Of a DNA stretch of 37,640 nt, positions 4,938 to 24,405 are shown one piece after another. Both the position numbers and the translations under genes were made by a program. The notes under the pieces are model-generated. The model saw nothing but the letters and a program-made list of their open reading frames with translations. It was not told the origin of the DNA and did not search any database. Position 1 is the stretch's first letter. Every line of letters starts with the position of its first letter. Source of the DNA: Dehalococcoidia bacterium (GTDB lineage: Bacteria; Chloroflexota; Dehalococcoidia; Tepidiformales; Tepidiformaceae); NCBI GenBank assembly GCA_020850615.1, contig JADZEI010000030.1:1-37640 (forward strand). The letters run 5' to 3'.

Positions 4938-6020
4938 ATGCTCACGCCAGCCGATGACTACCTGCTCCACCAGACGCCCTATCCCATCGACACGGTCTAC
5001 ACGACGGACCGCAACTTCTACGACCGCTATTTCTTCAACGGCTACCGGCGCGATGGCGAGGTCTACTTCGCCTTCGCGATGGGCCAGTACCAGAACATGG
5101 GCGTCTTCGATGCCGCCTTTTCGATCGTCTACCAGGGGCGGCAAAAGCAGGTGCGCGCCTCCCGCCGCATGGGCGCCGACCGCATGGACGCACGGGTCGG
5201 GCCCATCCGCGTCGAGATCGTCGAGCCGCTGCGCAAGGTGCGCGTCGTCATCGAGCCGAACGAGCACGGCGTGAGCGGCGACCTGCTCTTCGAAGCGCGG
5301 TCGCTGCCGAACGAGGAGCCGCATTTCAACCGCCGCGGCATGATGACGATGGACTACACCCGCATGACCCAGCACGGCAGCTGGAGCGGGACGCTCACCT
5401 TCGAAGGCACGACCTTCAACCTCGGCGATTCCACCTGGTGGGGATCCCGCGACCATTCGTGGGGCATCCGCGGGGTCGGGGGTCGCGACCTGCGCGGTGC
5501 GCCGCCCACGGCGATCCCCCAGTTCTTCTGGACCTGGGCGCCGCTTAACTTCGACAAGATCTGCACGCTGTTCACCGCCTCCGAGCTCTCCGACGGCACG
5601 CGCTGGCACCAGTCCGGCGTCATCCTCACGCCCTACCCGGACGCGACGGAGACGGAGTGCGCGATCGACCACGACCTCTCGTTCCAGAAGGGCACGCGCT
5701 GGATCGACAAGGCGACGCTCACGCTCACGCCGCATTCGGGAGAGCCGCTCGAAATCACGGTCCAGCCGCTCTACCACTTCCTCATGCAGGGCATCGGCTA
5801 CGGCCACCCGAAGTGGGGGCACGGCATGTGGGTCGGCGAGGACGTGGTTGGCGGCGACGAGTACGTCACGAAGGAGGCGAACCCGATGGAGAACCTCCAC
5901 GTGCAGACCGTCTCGCTGGTGCGCGCGGGCGCACACGAAGGCATCGGCATCTTCGAGCACATCATCATGGGGCCGCACCAGCGCTACGGCTTCCGGGAAA
6001 TGCTCGACCCGGCCCGTTGA
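4938..6020 (+). CDS. Uncharacterised AttH/CrtC-like (DUF7064/DUF7065-type) protein
   Basis: A 360-residue soluble protein with no signal peptide or membrane span. The motif W-G-S-R-D-H-S-W-G-I-R at about residues 168-178, and beta-rich sequence on both sides, resemble the lipocalin-like AttH/hydroxyneurosporene-synthase fold and the DUF7064/7065 proteins that sit beside lipid and steroid catabolism genes in actinobacteria. I recall that family by motif only; no reaction can be assigned. ATG 4938 is chosen because the promoter ends 7 nt before it; the in-frame ATG at 4878 lies inside the repeat. The CoA-transferase gene follows after 8 nt, so the two probably form an operon. Confidence 0.7.
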   Translation: MLTPADDYLLHQTPYPIDTVYTTDRNFYDRYFFNGYRRDGEVYFAFAMGQYQNMGVFDAAFSIVYQGRQKQVRASRRMGADRMDARVGPIRVEIVEPLRKVRVVIEPNEHGVSGDLLFEARSLPNEEPHFNRRGMMTMDYTRMTQHGSWSGTLTFEGTTFNLGDSTWWGSRDHSWGIRGVGGRDLRGAPPTAIPQFFWTWAPLNFDKICTLFTASELSDGTRWHQSGVILTPYPDATETECAIDHDLSFQKGTRWIDKATLTLTPHSGEPLEITVQPLYHFLMQGIGYGHPKWGHGMWVGEDVVGGDEYVTKEANPMENLHVQTVSLVRAGAHEGIGIFEHIIMGPHQRYGFREMLDPAR

Positions 6021-19702: not shown

Positions 19703-20494
19703 TCAGCCAGCCAGGACGCCGTCGTCGCCGCCGAAGTTCGCGAGCATTTTCTCGGCTTCTTCGACGCTTTCGAGGCGGACGATCCCCTTGCGGATGGCGT
19801 AGCGGATGAGGTCCGTGCGGTTGCGGGCGTGCAGCTTGGCCATGATGTGGGCCTTGTGCGCTTCGACGGTCTTGACGCTGATGAAGAGCGCGTTCGCGAT
19901 GCCCTGGTTGGTGTACCCCTCGGCGATGAGCTGGAGGACTTCCCGCTCGCGGGAGGTGAGGGCTTCCACGCCGGTGCGCTGGTCGGAGCGCTTCGCCTGG
20001 TAGAGCACCTCGGCAAGGTCGAAGCCTTCGCTCAGGGCGCTGGAGAAGTAGCTGTTGCCGCGGTGGACGGTCTGGATGGCGAGGACGAGCTCGGAGACGT
20101 CGGACTTCTTGATGATGTAGCCGGAGGCCCCGGAACGGAGCGCTTCGAGCAACTGGTCCTCGTCGACGAAGCCGCTGAGCATGACGACGCGGGTGCTCGG
20201 GCTGGAGCGGCGGATCTGGCGGGTGGCCTCGAGGCCGTTGAGGCCGGGCATGACGACGTCCATGAGGACGACGTCGGGGTTGAGCTTTTCCACCGCCTGC
20301 ACGGCTTCGCGGCCGTTTTCGACGTCACCGACGACCTCGAGCTCGGGCTGGCTTTCGAGCAGCATGCGCAGGGCCTGGCGAATGACGGCGTGGTCGTCCA
20401 CCAGGAGGATGCGGATCGGCGCGCGGCCGTTCACAGAGCCATTCGAGGAAACCGCGGCCCGGGTAAGGGGGCGGCCGGTGCGGGATGGGTTCAT
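19703..20494 (-). CDS. NarL/LuxR-type response regulator (orphan)
   Basis: A 263-residue two-component response regulator. Residues 1-26 are an unusual basic, low-complexity extension. The receiver domain follows, with acidic pair D33-D34, phosphoacceptor D79 (LMDVVMPGLNG) and conserved Lys at about 129. A LuxR HTH spans about 180-225 (LTSREREVLQLIAEGYTNQGIANALFISVKTVEAHKAHIMAKL). A short C-terminal tail follows. ATG 20494 has GGAGGAG upstream. No histidine kinase is next to it, so the partner is encoded elsewhere. The gap upstream (20495-20769) is rich in repeats of AGGGTT/AACCCT. Confidence 0.93.
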   Translation of the reverse strand: MNPSRTGRPLTRAAVSSNGSVNGRAPIRILLVDDHAVIRQALRMLLESQPELEVVGDVENGREAVQAVEKLNPDVVLMDVVMPGLNGLEATRQIRRSSPSTRVVMLSGFVDEDQLLEALRSGASGYIIKKSDVSELVLAIQTVHRGNSYFSSALSEGFDLAEVLYQAKRSDQRTGVEALTSREREVLQLIAEGYTNQGIANALFISVKTVEAHKAHIMAKLHARNRTDLIRYAIRKGIVRLESVEEAEKMLANFGGDDGVLAG

Positions 20495-20769: not shown

Positions 20770-21057
20770 TTAGACGGTGAAGAAGGCGCGCTCGACGTGC
20801 TTGCCGTCGGAGAGCAGGTTGATCTCGGAGCGGAGGTGGAGGATGTGGTCGGTGTTGGCGGCCTGCTCGGCGGAGTTCTCGTCGCGATAGATGGCCATGC
20901 GCGCCACTTCGCCGGAGTTGTCGTGCGGCTTGAGGACGTAGCTCTCGACGCAGCCCTCGGCTTCGGCGACGGCGGCGGCGAGCTTGCGCATGACCTCTTC
21001 GATGTTCTTTTCCTCCCCGCGGCGCGGGGTCACGATCGAGATACGGACGTACGGCAT
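20770..21057 (-). CDS. Dimeric alpha-beta barrel (ABM-like) protein
   Basis: A 95-residue protein of the antibiotic-biosynthesis-monooxygenase-like fold: YVRISIVTPRRGEEKNIEEVMRKLAAAVAEAEGCVESYVLKPHD gives strand-helix-strand, and GEVARMAIYRDENSAEQA begins the second strand-helix half. These proteins dimerise; some oxidise quinones or degrade haem, most are uncharacterised. No haem-binding histidine pattern is evident. GGAGG lies about 10 nt before the ATG. Separated from the zinc-ribbon gene by a terminator at 21121-21146. Confidence 0.75.
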   Translation of the reverse strand: MPYVRISIVTPRRGEEKNIEEVMRKLAAAVAEAEGCVESYVLKPHDNSGEVARMAIYRDENSAEQAANTDHILHLRSEINLLSDGKHVERAFFTV

Positions 21058-21120
21058 GGTGGCGGCCCTCCCTGTTGGCTCGGCGCATTCTAGTGAACCG
21101 TAGCGCCACGGGAAAAGGGA

Positions 21121-21146
21121 ACGCCCCCGGGGTGTCCCGGGGGCGT
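21121..21146 (-). terminator. Intrinsic terminator of the zinc-ribbon gene
   Basis: ACGCCCCCGGG (21121-21131) and CCCGGGGGCGT (21136-21146) form a perfect 11-bp stem with a GTGT loop. On the minus strand it is followed by TCCCTTTTCCC. It lies about 30 bp past the zinc-ribbon stop. Confidence 0.75.
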
Positions 21147-21174
21147 CACTGATATCGTCTTGAGAAACCGTGGA

Positions 21175-21393
21175 TCAGAGGCGCAGCTTGCCGTGCGAGG
21201 GCTGGCGGCGGCGCTGGCGCTGGGGCAGTGCGGCCTCTTCAGCGGCGAGGTCGACGGGCGGGCTGGTGAGCACTTCGTGCACGTAGCCGCACATGATGCA
21301 GCTACCATAGGTCCCGTGCCAGTCGCGCTCGACGATCATCGAGCCGCGGCACTTGGGGCAAGACTTGGGCGGGGCTTCCTGCAAAGCCGGCAT
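21175..21393 (-). CDS. 72-residue zinc-ribbon protein under a c-di-AMP riboswitch
   Basis: A small protein with one treble Cys pair: C12-P-K-C15 and C32-I-M-C35 (CPKCRGSMIVERDWHGTYGSCIMCGYVHE), a zinc-ribbon fold like those in FmdB or transcription-related proteins. The C-terminal 35 residues are Ala/Glu-rich, then basic. GGAGGG precedes ATG 21393 by about 6 nt. The 5' leader of about 250 nt carries a ydaO-type aptamer (21487-21599). It is followed by its own terminator, so it looks monocistronic. Function unknown; a nucleic-acid-binding or regulatory role is possible. Confidence 0.8.
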   Translation of the reverse strand: MPALQEAPPKSCPKCRGSMIVERDWHGTYGSCIMCGYVHEVLTSPPVDLAAEEAALPQRQRRRQPSHGKLRL

Positions 21394-21486
21394 ACGGTTC
21401 CCTCCTGCGGTCGCAAGCGACGGTTAGTTAGTACGAGTCACTCCTGGGAGCCTCGTCCGCGGGCGTCCTGCCCGCGAGGCCTTCTG

Positions 21487-21599
21487 CTGCGTACGGGGTT
21501 AGCTGACGGGTTCGGGCGGAAGGACGCCCTACCGGCTGAGAGAGGCCGGATTCACCCCGGTAACTGGTTCCCCCGTTGCGCATCAAGCGCATTCCGCAG
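21487..21599 (-). ncRNA. c-di-AMP riboswitch (ydaO/yuaA leader)
   Basis: On the minus strand the conserved blocks appear in the right order: GGGGGAACC, then GGGGTGAATCC, then CCGAACCCGTCAGCTAACC followed by CGTACGC. The outer P1 helix is CTGCG (21599-21595) with CGCAG (21491-21487). These match the RF00379 consensus that binds two c-di-AMP. Downstream of it, GCCTCG-CGGGC and GCCCG-CGGACGAGGC can form a hairpin, and GTCGC-TT-GCGAC lies next to the SD, so translation control is possible; no T-run follows. Confidence 0.92.
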
Positions 21600-21618
21600 T
21601 GCTGTGGTCCCGAGCGCG

Positions 21619-21636
21619 AGTTCGCTCACGCGAACT
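21619..21636 (-). other. Leader hairpin with GNRA loop
   Basis: AGTTCGC-GTGA-GCGAACT on the minus strand is a perfect 7-bp stem closed by a GTGA tetraloop, lying between the promoter (21648-21675) and the aptamer. It may stabilise the 5' end. Confidence 0.55.
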
Positions 21637-21647
21637 TCAATCCGGAC

Positions 21648-21675
21648 GCTATCAATCTGGTGACACGCCTGTCAA
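21648..21675 (-). promoter_or_regulatory. Promoter of the riboswitch transcript
   Basis: On the minus strand a perfect -35 TTGACA (21675-21670) is 16 nt from GATAGC (21653-21648), which matches the -10 weakly. Transcription would start near 21641 and include the full c-di-AMP aptamer. Confidence 0.6.
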
Positions 21676-21894: not shown

Positions 21895-22437
21895 TCAGGC
21901 GCGGCCCTGGGCGCGGCAGTCGTACTCCTCGCGGAGCTGGCCCATCGTGACTTCGTCGTCGTAGCGCCCGGCGTAGTAGTAGGACTCGCGCCGCACGCCT
22001 TCGACGACGAAGCCGGCCTTCTCGTAGGTGCGCCGGGCGCGGGCGTTGGCGGCGCTCACGCGGAGCTCGATGCGGTGGAGGTTCATCATCTCGAACCCGA
22101 AGCGGCAGGCGACCCGCACGGTATCGGTGCCGAGCCCGCGGCCGCGCGCCTCCGGGCCGAGGAGGACGGCGAGCTCGGCGCAGCGGTTCTCCGGGCCGAG
22201 CGTCCGCAGGGAGACTTCGCCCGCGGGCTTGCCCGTCGCGCGTTCGAAGACGGCGAAGTGGGCGAGCTGGTAGCCGGGCGCCTGGAGCGGCCGCGAACGG
22301 AGCCCTTCGAGCGAGGACGGGTAGCGGACGCCGTTGAAGCGGATGACGTCGGGGTCTGCGAGCCAGCCGTGCACCTGCTCCCGCTCCTCGCGCTCAGCCG
22401 CGCGCAGATAGACCAGCTCTCCTTCGAGCGGGTTCAT
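21895..22437 (-). CDS. GNAT acetyltransferase, RimJ/RimL-like
   Basis: A 180-residue GNAT of the RimJ/RimL type, typical of enzymes that acetylate N-termini or small amines. The acetyl-CoA loop is LLGPEARGRGLGTDTVRVACRFGFEMMNLHRIEL, and the C-terminal ARARRTYEKAGFVVEGVRRESYYYAGRYDDEVTMGQL is the usual family ending. Its start codon overlaps the stop of the GNAT remnant upstream (ATGA). It forms a GNAT cluster with 22589-23122; the remnant between them shares the YExVGF and GRYVD elements. Confidence 0.9.
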   Translation of the reverse strand: MNPLEGELVYLRAAEREEREQVHGWLADPDVIRFNGVRYPSSLEGLRSRPLQAPGYQLAHFAVFERATGKPAGEVSLRTLGPENRCAELAVLLGPEARGRGLGTDTVRVACRFGFEMMNLHRIELRVSAANARARRTYEKAGFVVEGVRRESYYYAGRYDDEVTMGQLREEYDCRAQGRA

Positions 22438-22592
22438 GCCACATCCTCCACGAGCTCGCCGCGCAGCAGCCCCATGAGCACGCTATCCACGTACCGCCCC
22501 ACCGTGTACGAGGCCTGGCGCAGCGTCCCTTCGCTGCGGAAGCCTACGCGCTCATAAACGTGTCGTGCACGGTGGTTACGCGGCCCGGTCAC
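22434..22592 (-). pseudogene. C-terminal remnant of a third GNAT gene
   Basis: The 159-bp frame encodes only the last 50 or so residues of a RimJ/RimL-like GNAT: N-H-R-A-R-H-V-Y-E-R-V-G-F, then GRYVDSVLMGLLRGELVEDVA. It matches the C-terminus of its neighbour (NDRAQHVYEKVGF, GRYVDVLVMGLLEGEL). Everything upstream, including the acetyl-CoA loop, is missing and is replaced directly by the end of the previous gene, so this looks like a deletion after gene duplication. A GTG at 22592 overlapping the previous stop could still allow translation. Confidence 0.75.
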
Positions 22593-23122
22593 CGGAGCTC
22601 GCCTTCGAGCAGCCCCATGACGAGGACGTCGACGTAGCGCCCGAACTTGAAGTGCGCCTGCCGCCGGCGCGCCTCGACCTTGAACCCGACCTTCTCGTAG
22701 ACGTGCTGGGCACGGTCGTTGCCGGCGAAGACCTCGAGCTCGATGCGGTGGAGGTTCATCATCTCGAAGCCGAAGCGGCAGGCCGTGCGCATCGTGTCGG
22801 TGCCGTAGCCGCGGCCCCAGTATTCCTTGTCACCGATCATGATCCCGAGGTCGCAGGAGCGGTCTTCGGGCACGGCGTTTCGCAGGCTCACGTTGCCGAT
22901 GAGCTGCCCCTCGGCGAGCGTCACCACCGAGAACGTGGCGTTCTGGTAGGTCGACGTGAGCGACGCGAACTCGCGCTCCTGGGCGTGCGAATAGGGGTAG
23001 CGCGCGTTGAGATGCTCGGTCACCTCCGGGTCGTGGATCCAGCGGTGGAAGTACGGCTCGTCTTCGGGTTCGTGCGAGCGGAGCCGGATCAGCTCGCCTT
23101 CGAGCGGTGACTTCGGGGGCAT
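22589..23122 (-). CDS. GNAT acetyltransferase, RimJ/RimL-like
   Basis: A 177-residue GNAT. The N-terminus is LEGELIRLRSHEPEDEPYFHRWIHDPEVTEHLN, the acetyl-CoA loop is IGDKEYWGRGYGTDTMRTACRFGFEMMNLHRIELEV, and the C-terminus is ARRRQAHFKFGRYVDVLVMGLLEG. ATG 23122 has AGGAGAG upstream; the longer frame to 23311 enters rtcB and is rejected. It follows rtcB by 56 nt, with a hairpin between them. It may be co-transcribed with the remnant and the GNAT at 21895. Confidence 0.9.
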   Translation of the reverse strand: MPPKSPLEGELIRLRSHEPEDEPYFHRWIHDPEVTEHLNARYPYSHAQEREFASLTSTYQNATFSVVTLAEGQLIGNVSLRNAVPEDRSCDLGIMIGDKEYWGRGYGTDTMRTACRFGFEMMNLHRIELEVFAGNDRAQHVYEKVGFKVEARRRQAHFKFGRYVDVLVMGLLEGELR

Positions 23123-23145
23123 GTCATCTCTCCTGTTTCGAAACC

Positions 23146-23174
23146 GGGGAGGGGCCACCGCGTGGCCCTCCCCC
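23146..23174 (-). terminator. Hairpin after rtcB
   Basis: GGGGAGG(G)GCCAC and GTGGCCCTCCCC pair with one bulge between the rtcB stop and the next GNAT gene. On the minus strand a short GGTTTCG follows. Partial terminator at best. Confidence 0.45.
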
Positions 23175-23178
23175 GGCG

Positions 23179-24405
23179 CTATCCCTTGACGCAGACCACC
23201 TGGCGGAGCGTGTGCACCACCTCCACGAGGTCGCGCTGCGCTTCCATGACGGAGTCGATGTCCTTGTAGGCGGCGGGCGTCTCGTCGAGCACCTCCGCGT
23301 CCTTCCGGCATTCGACGCCGCTGGTGGCGGCGATGTGGTCGGCGATGGTGAAGCGGCGCTTCGCCTCCGCGCGCGACATCTTGCGACCCGCGCCATGGCT
23401 GCAGGACTCGAACGAATCCGGGTTCCCCAGCCCGCGGACGATATAGGAACGCGTGCCCATTGAGCCGGGGATAATGCCATATTCGCCGCTTCCAGCCCGC
23501 ACGGCGCCCTTCCGCGTGACCCAGACGCTCCTGCCGAAGTGCTGCTCGCGCTGCACGTAGTTGTGGTGGCAGTTCACCGCCAGCTCGCCGTGCGCGAAGT
23601 CGCGGCCCAGGGTCGTCCGCATCGCGGCGAGCACTGCGTCCATCATCAGGCGCCGGTTCAGCCGCGCGAACCGCTGGGCCCAGTGGAGCGCCTGCACGTA
23701 GTCGGCGAAGTGCTGCGTGCCCTCCGGCAGGTAGGCGAGGTCCTGGTCCGGCAGGTTGATGAACCAGGAACGCATATCTTCCTTCGCGAGCGCGATGAAG
23801 TACGTGCCGACCCGGTTGCCCACGCCGCGCGAACCCGAGTGCAGCATCGCCCAGACGGCGCCATCCTCATCGAGGCACACTTCGATGAAGTGGTTGCCGG
23901 TGCCGAGCGTGCCGAGGTGCGCCGCCGTCTGCCCGCGCCGCAGCTTCGGGTGCTTCTCTGCGATGACGTCCCACTCCTCGGCGAGCTCGCTCTTCCAGGC
24001 GGCGGCCTGGGGGTCTGGCAGGTTGTGCCAGGCGCCGCGGTCGTTGCGGCCGCCGTTGTCGGTCCGGCCGTGCGGCACGGCGGTCTCGATCGCGGCGCGC
24101 AGCCCGGCGAGCCCGTCCGGGAGGTCCTCCGCGCGCAGGCTCGTCTTCGTCGCCATCATGCCGCAGCCGATGTCGACGCCGACGGCGGCCGGGATGATCG
24201 CGCGCTCGGTCGGGATGACCGAACCGACGGTCGCGCCGAGCCCCCAGTGCACGTCAGGCATGGCGGCCACCCAGCGGTAGATGAACGGCATCTTCGAGAC
24301 GTTCTTGAGTTGGAGGACTGCCTCGTCCTCAATGGGGACGCCGCGTGTCCACGCCTTGATCGGGACGCCACCGTCGTGGATGACGTCGTAGTTCCGCTCG
24401 TCCAT
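23179..24405 (-). CDS. rtcB: RNA-splicing/repair ligase RtcB
   Basis: A 408-residue GTP- and Mn-dependent RNA ligase that joins 2',3'-cyclic-phosphate or 3'-phosphate ends to 5'-OH ends, acting on broken tRNA and rRNA. It has the length of the E. coli enzyme. Metal ligands D78 and C81 are in GVDIGCGM, with LGTGNHFIEV and HSGSRGVGNRVG following; H337 in SCSHGAGRKMSR is the residue that is guanylylated. The ATG at 24405 has AGGAGAAGG upstream. No rtcA or rtcR lies nearby. Control is likely by the leader ORF and terminator at 24430-24608. Confidence 0.97.
   Translation of the reverse strand: MDERNYDVIHDGGVPIKAWTRGVPIEDEAVLQLKNVSKMPFIYRWVAAMPDVHWGLGATVGSVIPTERAIIPAAVGVDIGCGMMATKTSLRAEDLPDGLAGLRAAIETAVPHGRTDNGGRNDRGAWHNLPDPQAAAWKSELAEEWDVIAEKHPKLRRGQTAAHLGTLGTGNHFIEVCLDEDGAVWAMLHSGSRGVGNRVGTYFIALAKEDMRSWFINLPDQDLAYLPEGTQHFADYVQALHWAQRFARLNRRLMMDAVLAAMRTTLGRDFAHGELAVNCHHNYVQREQHFGRSVWVTRKGAVRAGSGEYGIIPGSMGTRSYIVRGLGNPDSFESCSHGAGRKMSRAEAKRRFTIADHIAATSGVECRKDAEVLDETPAAYKDIDSVMEAQRDLVEVVHTLRQVVCVKG

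Follow-up and report, generated by a model that had tools for sequence, protein, structure and literature searches.

Based on a covariance-model search and on the comparison of homologous loci throughout the class, we propose that a gene for a small zinc-ribbon protein is, with good probability, a core member of the c-di-AMP regulon in Dehalococcoidia, being expressed from a dedicated one-gene transcript under a genuine c-di-AMP riboswitch and possibly encoding an effector of this second messenger. Many bacteria cannot live without c-di-AMP, whose riboswitches are known to control transporters, osmolyte genes and enzymes of the cell wall. The gene lies in a stretch of 37,640 nucleotides (the window) from a genome of 4.17 Mb in 95 contigs, whose one-family order includes Tepidiforma relatives (Tepidiformaceae, Dehalococcoidia, Chloroflexota). 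This genome carries seven RF00379 aptamers and, as regards the DisA- or CdaA-like cyclase whose presence was to be checked, one DAC domain (141.2 bits), judged by eye to be of the CdaA type (apparent N-terminal membrane segment, with a YbbR/CdaR-like gene adjoining). At the level of gene content, the host would therefore be able to make c-di-AMP.

The preliminary description of this locus had placed a ydaO/yuaA aptamer with its P1 helix on the minus strand, and the RF00379 covariance model recovers it there over its full length (model positions 1-134), well above the gathering score of 38; the same single match is returned when the window is searched with permissive filters. In the P1 helix, UGCG (21598-21595) pairs with CGCA (21491-21488). 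Additionally, a loop strand and the strand located 3' of P1 are complementary and co-vary, forming the expected pseudoknot: in 62 distinct leaders the mean number of pairs is 5.8, against 4.9 after permutation (none of 20,000 permutations was as high), with pairs such as CCUUCC/GGAAGG, GCCUUUC/GAAAGGC, CUGAUC/GAUCAG and CUGUUC/GAACAG, among others. The locus thus combines a full-length aptamer above threshold, the pseudoknot between loop and 3' tail, and a position in a same-strand 5' leader downstream of a promoter (Table 1). Given the RF00379 score and the recurrence in dozens of genomes, a chance match is excluded and, as far as sequence can establish it, the riboswitch is genuine; the RNA of this locus is a predicted c-di-AMP binder of a known riboswitch class.

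Table 1. Features of the riboswitch locus and its neighbourhood, with coordinates in the window.
Feature	Coordinates	Strand	Basis
Promoter, sigma-70-type, TTGACA-N18-TAGCGT (TTGACA 21675-21670; TAGCGT 21651-21646; spacing 18 nt)	21646..21675	(-)	sequence; kept upstream of gene in relatives
c-di-AMP (ydaO/yuaA) riboswitch aptamer, RF00379	21473..21608	(-)	cmscan, 88.6 bits, E 1.3e-19
Pseudoknot loop strand CCUUC	21519..21523	(-)	pairs with GAAGG 21484-21480; covariation
Pseudoknot 3' strand GAAGG	21480..21484	(-)	covariation
Hairpin GCCUCGCGGGC/GCCCGC..CGAGGC, at the terminator-stem position of relatives, U-tract absent	21450..21480	(-)	-19.2 kcal/mol
Alternative hairpin ACGAG/CUCGU, antiterminator-like, overlapping the 3' arm of the 21450-21480 hairpin	21433..21456	(-)	-8.9 kcal/mol
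Shine-Dalgarno AGGAGGG	21400..21406	(-)	sequence
72-aa zinc-ribbon gene, C-terminal RQRRRQPSHGKLRL near-invariant	21175..21393	(-)	ORF; conservation in relatives
Terminator hairpin 3' of zinc-ribbon gene	21119..21147	(-)	-27 kcal/mol, then CCCUUUU
ABM-domain (PF03992) gene, conserved neighbour, probably transcribed separately	20770..21057	(-)	domain match; recurs in loci
NarL/LuxR-type response regulator, conserved neighbour	19703..20494	(-)	domain match; recurs in loci

The remaining elements of the transcript were also largely as first described. A TTGACA promoter is found upstream of the aptamer and, from the position of the TTGACA and TAGCGT boxes, the transcript would be expected to start before the aptamer and not downstream of it. 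The open reading frame for a 72-residue CxxC...CxxC protein was confirmed, and the gene's own terminator is located just 3' of the segment originally considered; a simple promoter and terminator scan of the region gave no match and missed this terminator, and the comparison of relatives was needed instead. The distance of 93 nt between aptamer and gene becomes 79 nt when measured from the Rfam aptamer end to the ATG, since the value depends on how the end of the aptamer is defined. The idea of a single small gene holds for the transcript, which is closed by the 3' terminator, and has to be widened in two respects: the same riboswitch class also precedes other small zinc-ribbon families, and a conserved neighbourhood follows the gene in many genomes. 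In particular, 52 of 136 loci have an ABM-domain gene on the same strand, at a distance of 49-216 nt from the end of the zinc-ribbon gene, and 50 of 136 have a match to a NarL-type response regulator (rough counts, given that contig ends truncate many of these loci and that certain genomes are present in both locus sets). An operon of the zinc-ribbon and ABM genes in the window is unlikely, because the terminator hairpin separates them. On the other side of the riboswitch, the window contains tandem GNAT acetyltransferase genes (21895-23311, minus strand), and a GNAT gene is found near the zinc-ribbon gene in 26 of the 136 loci; in six loci (L060, L061, L062, L073, L079 and L086) cobalamin riboswitches lie within a few kb of it.

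In many relatives the leaders look like transcription attenuators, in which c-di-AMP binding would select between intrinsic termination and read-through. Of 76 homologous leaders, 35 have a hairpin (-8 kcal/mol or better) followed by a U-run directly 3' of the aptamer, and many order-level leaders have UUCGAGG/CCUCGAA around the U-tract, an apparent antiterminator, whose counterpart in the window is the 21433-21456 hairpin. The U-tract terminator that defines a ydaO-type terminating OFF switch, present in those 35 leaders, is absent from the window copy, where no intrinsic terminator with a U-tract was found between aptamer and gene (the hairpin at 21480-21450 is followed by UCCCAGG); control at the level of translation, or by another termination route, would therefore be likelier there than U-tract termination. 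Translational control by a c-di-AMP riboswitch without terminator has been reported in C. glutamicum (PMC9960051), and the C. glutamicum nlpC and S. coelicolor rpfA riboswitches (PMC9960051) resemble the window copy in having no canonical terminator, although they differ from it in their cell-wall targets and in that relatives of the window copy often do have a terminator.

As for the sign of control, the published c-di-AMP riboswitches are OFF switches (PMC5575661, PMC6488665, PMC9960051) and, by this precedent, c-di-AMP would switch the zinc-ribbon gene OFF, so that the protein would be made as c-di-AMP falls (at low K+ or turgor). The architecture of the leaders would also fit an ON switch: the terminator 5' arm overlaps the pseudoknot 3' strand by at least 4 nt in 21 of the 25 leaders whose terminator is clear, which makes terminator and pseudoknot mutually exclusive, and c-di-AMP, by stabilizing a pseudoknot that co-varies across leaders, would sequester the 5' arm and let transcription proceed, with the protein made at high c-di-AMP. 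We regard this as a possibility of limited weight, considering that the characterized riboswitches all act in the opposite direction (a comparison made by sign, and not by overlap) and that some order members have a separate antiterminator-like hairpin; OFF control by analogy is the reading that we tentatively prefer.

The promoter is itself conserved, the gene being preceded by TTGAC(A/G) and TAnnnT in 33 of 33 order loci with enough upstream sequence and in 47 of 56 other class loci. Outside the order, a TCACA(A)-type site (TGTnn-N6-TCACAA-like) follows immediately after the -10 box in 43 of these 47 recognized promoters, and the site is also found at riboswitch-less copies (L069, L071). The site is Crp/Fnr-like, and was seen in upstream regions of the L054-L104 set (e.g. 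L097, L069 and L071). If the zinc ribbon were a transcription factor acting on its own TGTnn-N6-TCACAA site, with the riboswitch as a second input, then both the frequency of the site (including its persistence at copies without riboswitch) and the near privacy of the combined promoter and site pattern, which, over the 12 genomes searched, matched the promoter of the gene itself in 9 and gave 4 matches elsewhere in total, would be accounted for. We nevertheless find such autoregulation improbable: the order of the window has a site at the corresponding place in only 2 of 33 loci, a 17-bp palindrome is rarely read by monomeric zinc ribbons of this size, and the uniqueness of the pattern may merely reflect its strictness.

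The pairing of riboswitch and gene extends far beyond the window. Among the 29 loci fetched from the order, 27 have RF00379 upstream of the zinc-ribbon gene; outside the order, it is upstream in 40 of 51 loci whose protein has the conserved C-terminal tail (described below), versus none of nine tail-less relatives. In a census of 119 sampled Dehalococcoidia genomes (many of them metagenome-assembled, and searched with stricter filters, which weak RF00379 matches may escape), 45 had RF00379, with 124 matches in total, and 47 had a DAC domain. The protein is present in 34 of the 119, all 34 with a DAC domain, and in none of the 72 DAC-less genomes (Fisher p ~2e-19, with genomes treated as independent and kinship uncorrected). 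The zinc-ribbon gene is the most frequent recognized target family, following 24 of the 124 aptamers, and its riboswitch is the sole RF00379 match in five genomes (G070, G140, G099, G114 and G142). Listing the genes that follow the riboswitch in related genomes, as had been suggested, thus shows this gene recurring class-wide, which strongly supports the initial proposal of a new c-di-AMP regulon member.

The riboswitch is not indispensable, since 10 of the 34 protein-bearing genomes have no RF00379 before the gene (f21, f50, G053, G092). A permissive Rfam recheck of L056, L069, L071, L086, the f21 members, L033 and L037 found no riboswitch, which means that it is either truly absent from these loci or decayed. 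Aptamer-less gene copies were seen at L033, L037, L056, L086 and L096-L102, the promoter being recognized in the first four, and appear to be riboswitch losses. That the pairing is a mere accident of descent, the riboswitch standing in front of a conserved housekeeping gene that is functionally unrelated to c-di-AMP, is compatible with the retention of the gene in those ten genomes but very improbable, given a pseudoknot that co-varies despite sequence divergence, a gene never found without the cyclase in the sampled genomes, the absence of the riboswitch from the nine tail-less relatives checked, and the five genomes whose only c-di-AMP riboswitch found precedes this gene.

Zinc-ribbon-like targets are not limited to this family, given that 17 further RF00379 aptamers precede other small paired-cysteine proteins (our own count, on predicted ORFs), which brings the total to 24 + 17 = 41 of 124 riboswitches. 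The other recognized target clusters, named by eye, are glycosyltransferases (17) and trehalose synthesis (OtsA/OtsB, 12), again out of 124; the largest raw cluster (31 loci), in which unrelated and out-of-frame ORFs had been chained together, was set aside from the ranking. The trehalose targets fit an osmotic role, and such genes were noted after riboswitches at L201, L209, L214, L217, L221, L231, L249, L255 and L257. A second family of 58-60 aa, ending CPxCHxxxPEWRFG (...CPxC..YE.RDRYCPGCH..PEWRFG), directly follows c-di-AMP riboswitches in several genera within the Tepidiformaceae (L008, L243, L248, L266, L271; L008, with the feature at its positions 5225-5644, is from contig C64 of the host genome). 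A third one, with C..C/CN.CA motifs (e.g. CDIC..CNDCATDYEI), occurs in three other families of the class (L199, L203, L222, L241, L242), a CDMWG family follows riboswitches at L236 and L262, and L205, L206, L207, L250 and L011 are singleton paired-cysteine targets. Short DUF2171/PRC-like proteins were also seen after c-di-AMP riboswitches (L013, 3493-3807, below the Pfam cut-off, and L279).

The protein itself is strongly conserved. Of 38 genomes from the window's order, 35 encode it, covering 17 of 18 genera; these copies are 81-100% identical, often with 72 of 72 residues shared between genera. Full-length copies from the class are 48-70% identical and all end [RK]QRRRQPSHGKLRL, substitutions in this motif being rare. 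Across 83 distinct coding sequences the C-terminal peptide RRRQPSHGKLRL, and with it the final 12 residues of the protein, is practically fixed, while the synonymous codons of the tail vary freely and all three stop codons are used, which rules out conservation at the DNA or RNA level as the source of the invariant tail. Order members differ from the window gene by 12-33 synonymous and 0-6 nonsynonymous codons. This codon pattern indicates that the peptide is under selection at the protein level. In a scan of genome contigs of 84,980 species with the pattern RRRQPSHGK plus a ribbon pattern, 152 stretches were found, of which 126 were recognized as relatives; the 80 relatives kept, Tepidiforma flava among the matches, all come from Chloroflexota or from unnamed-bacterium records, to which the tail appears confined within this set. 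Some oceanic matches, judged by isolate name, look like SAR202-type MAGs, and the spread through the class probably includes marine lineages of this type. Outside the class, a sample of the phylum yielded the ribbon half alone; the tail-less Chloroflexota relatives (L105-L113, motif CPRCKGD..DRDxYGWYEQCLQCGY) are homologous, but have neither the RRRQPSHGKLRL tail nor the riboswitch.

C12, C15, C32 and C35 are invariant in the alignment of homologues, and the predicted model places the two CxxC knuckles on a beta-hairpin, as in a zinc ribbon (the metal itself being predicted). The model (mean pLDDT 75.3, pTM 0.45) has strands at 18-24, 27-32 and 38-40, with block pLDDT values of 83-90 for residues 11-40; a short helix at 46-55 follows, and the tail is poorly ordered. 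No Pfam or NCBIfam family matched the protein above cut-off, the nearest being TFIIB, RPB9 and similar ribbons; the TFIIB zinc-binding family PF08271 reached 21.9 bits (E 1.3e-4), below its gathering value of 29. The CxxC-x16-CxxC arrangement is common to the TFIIB, RPB9-TFIIS and RPC10 ribbons, from which the window protein differs in being bacterial, in standing free as 72 aa and in its unique near-invariant tail. A PDB sequence search gave no match below E 0.07, and Foldseek none at E <= 0.001 (best E 0.07). The structural neighbours are all weak (VIA Z at most 4.0) and include RNA-polymerase and other transcription and translation ribbons, ZifS and MqsA; the nearest zinc-ribbon structures are mostly transcription-machinery ribbons, a similarity too weak to give much functional information. 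The best VIA match, ZifS (TTHA0897 from Thermus thermophilus, PDB 8yoz), is likewise a small free-standing zinc protein (Z 4.0, rmsd 4.5 over 58 residues), but at 17% identity may share only a common arrangement. An effector role is plausible: the protein could be a non-enzymatic effector whose RRRQPSHGKLRL tail docks it on RNA polymerase, the ribosome or nucleic acid, which is the weakest step of the proposed mechanism.

In comparison with the RF00379 systems already characterized, such as B. subtilis ydaO/kimA and B. thuringiensis kdpFABC, the locus has the same full-length aptamer, pseudoknot, upstream promoter and host cyclase; the intrinsic terminator that follows the aptamer in those systems recurs in many relatives, but not in the window copy, and the target is a small zinc-ribbon protein instead of a K+ or osmolyte transporter or a cell-wall enzyme. 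Among the papers searched, none joins a c-di-AMP riboswitch with a zinc ribbon (a supplementary table of the original riboswitch gene surveys might already list some of these genes) and none joins ydaO with Chloroflexi, the single Chloroflexota match concerning KdpD. The riboswitch class is known, whereas the target family is new and deeply conserved.

The most frequent class-wide target in the sampled genomes is an undescribed protein of ~70 aa with nearly unchanging last 12 residues. Such constancy points to a fixed partner, and identifying it, by pull-down or from a structure, could uncover a new output of c-di-AMP. The other small zinc-ribbon proteins under riboswitches of this class suggest that the strategy is general, and we tentatively put forward that Dehalococcoidia may use c-di-AMP largely to set the levels of small zinc-ribbon adaptors binding the transcription or translation machinery, with the RRRQPSHGKLRL-tailed protein as the conserved core of the regulon. 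If true, c-di-AMP would have an output of a new kind here, different from K+ and osmolyte transport and from cell-wall enzymes.
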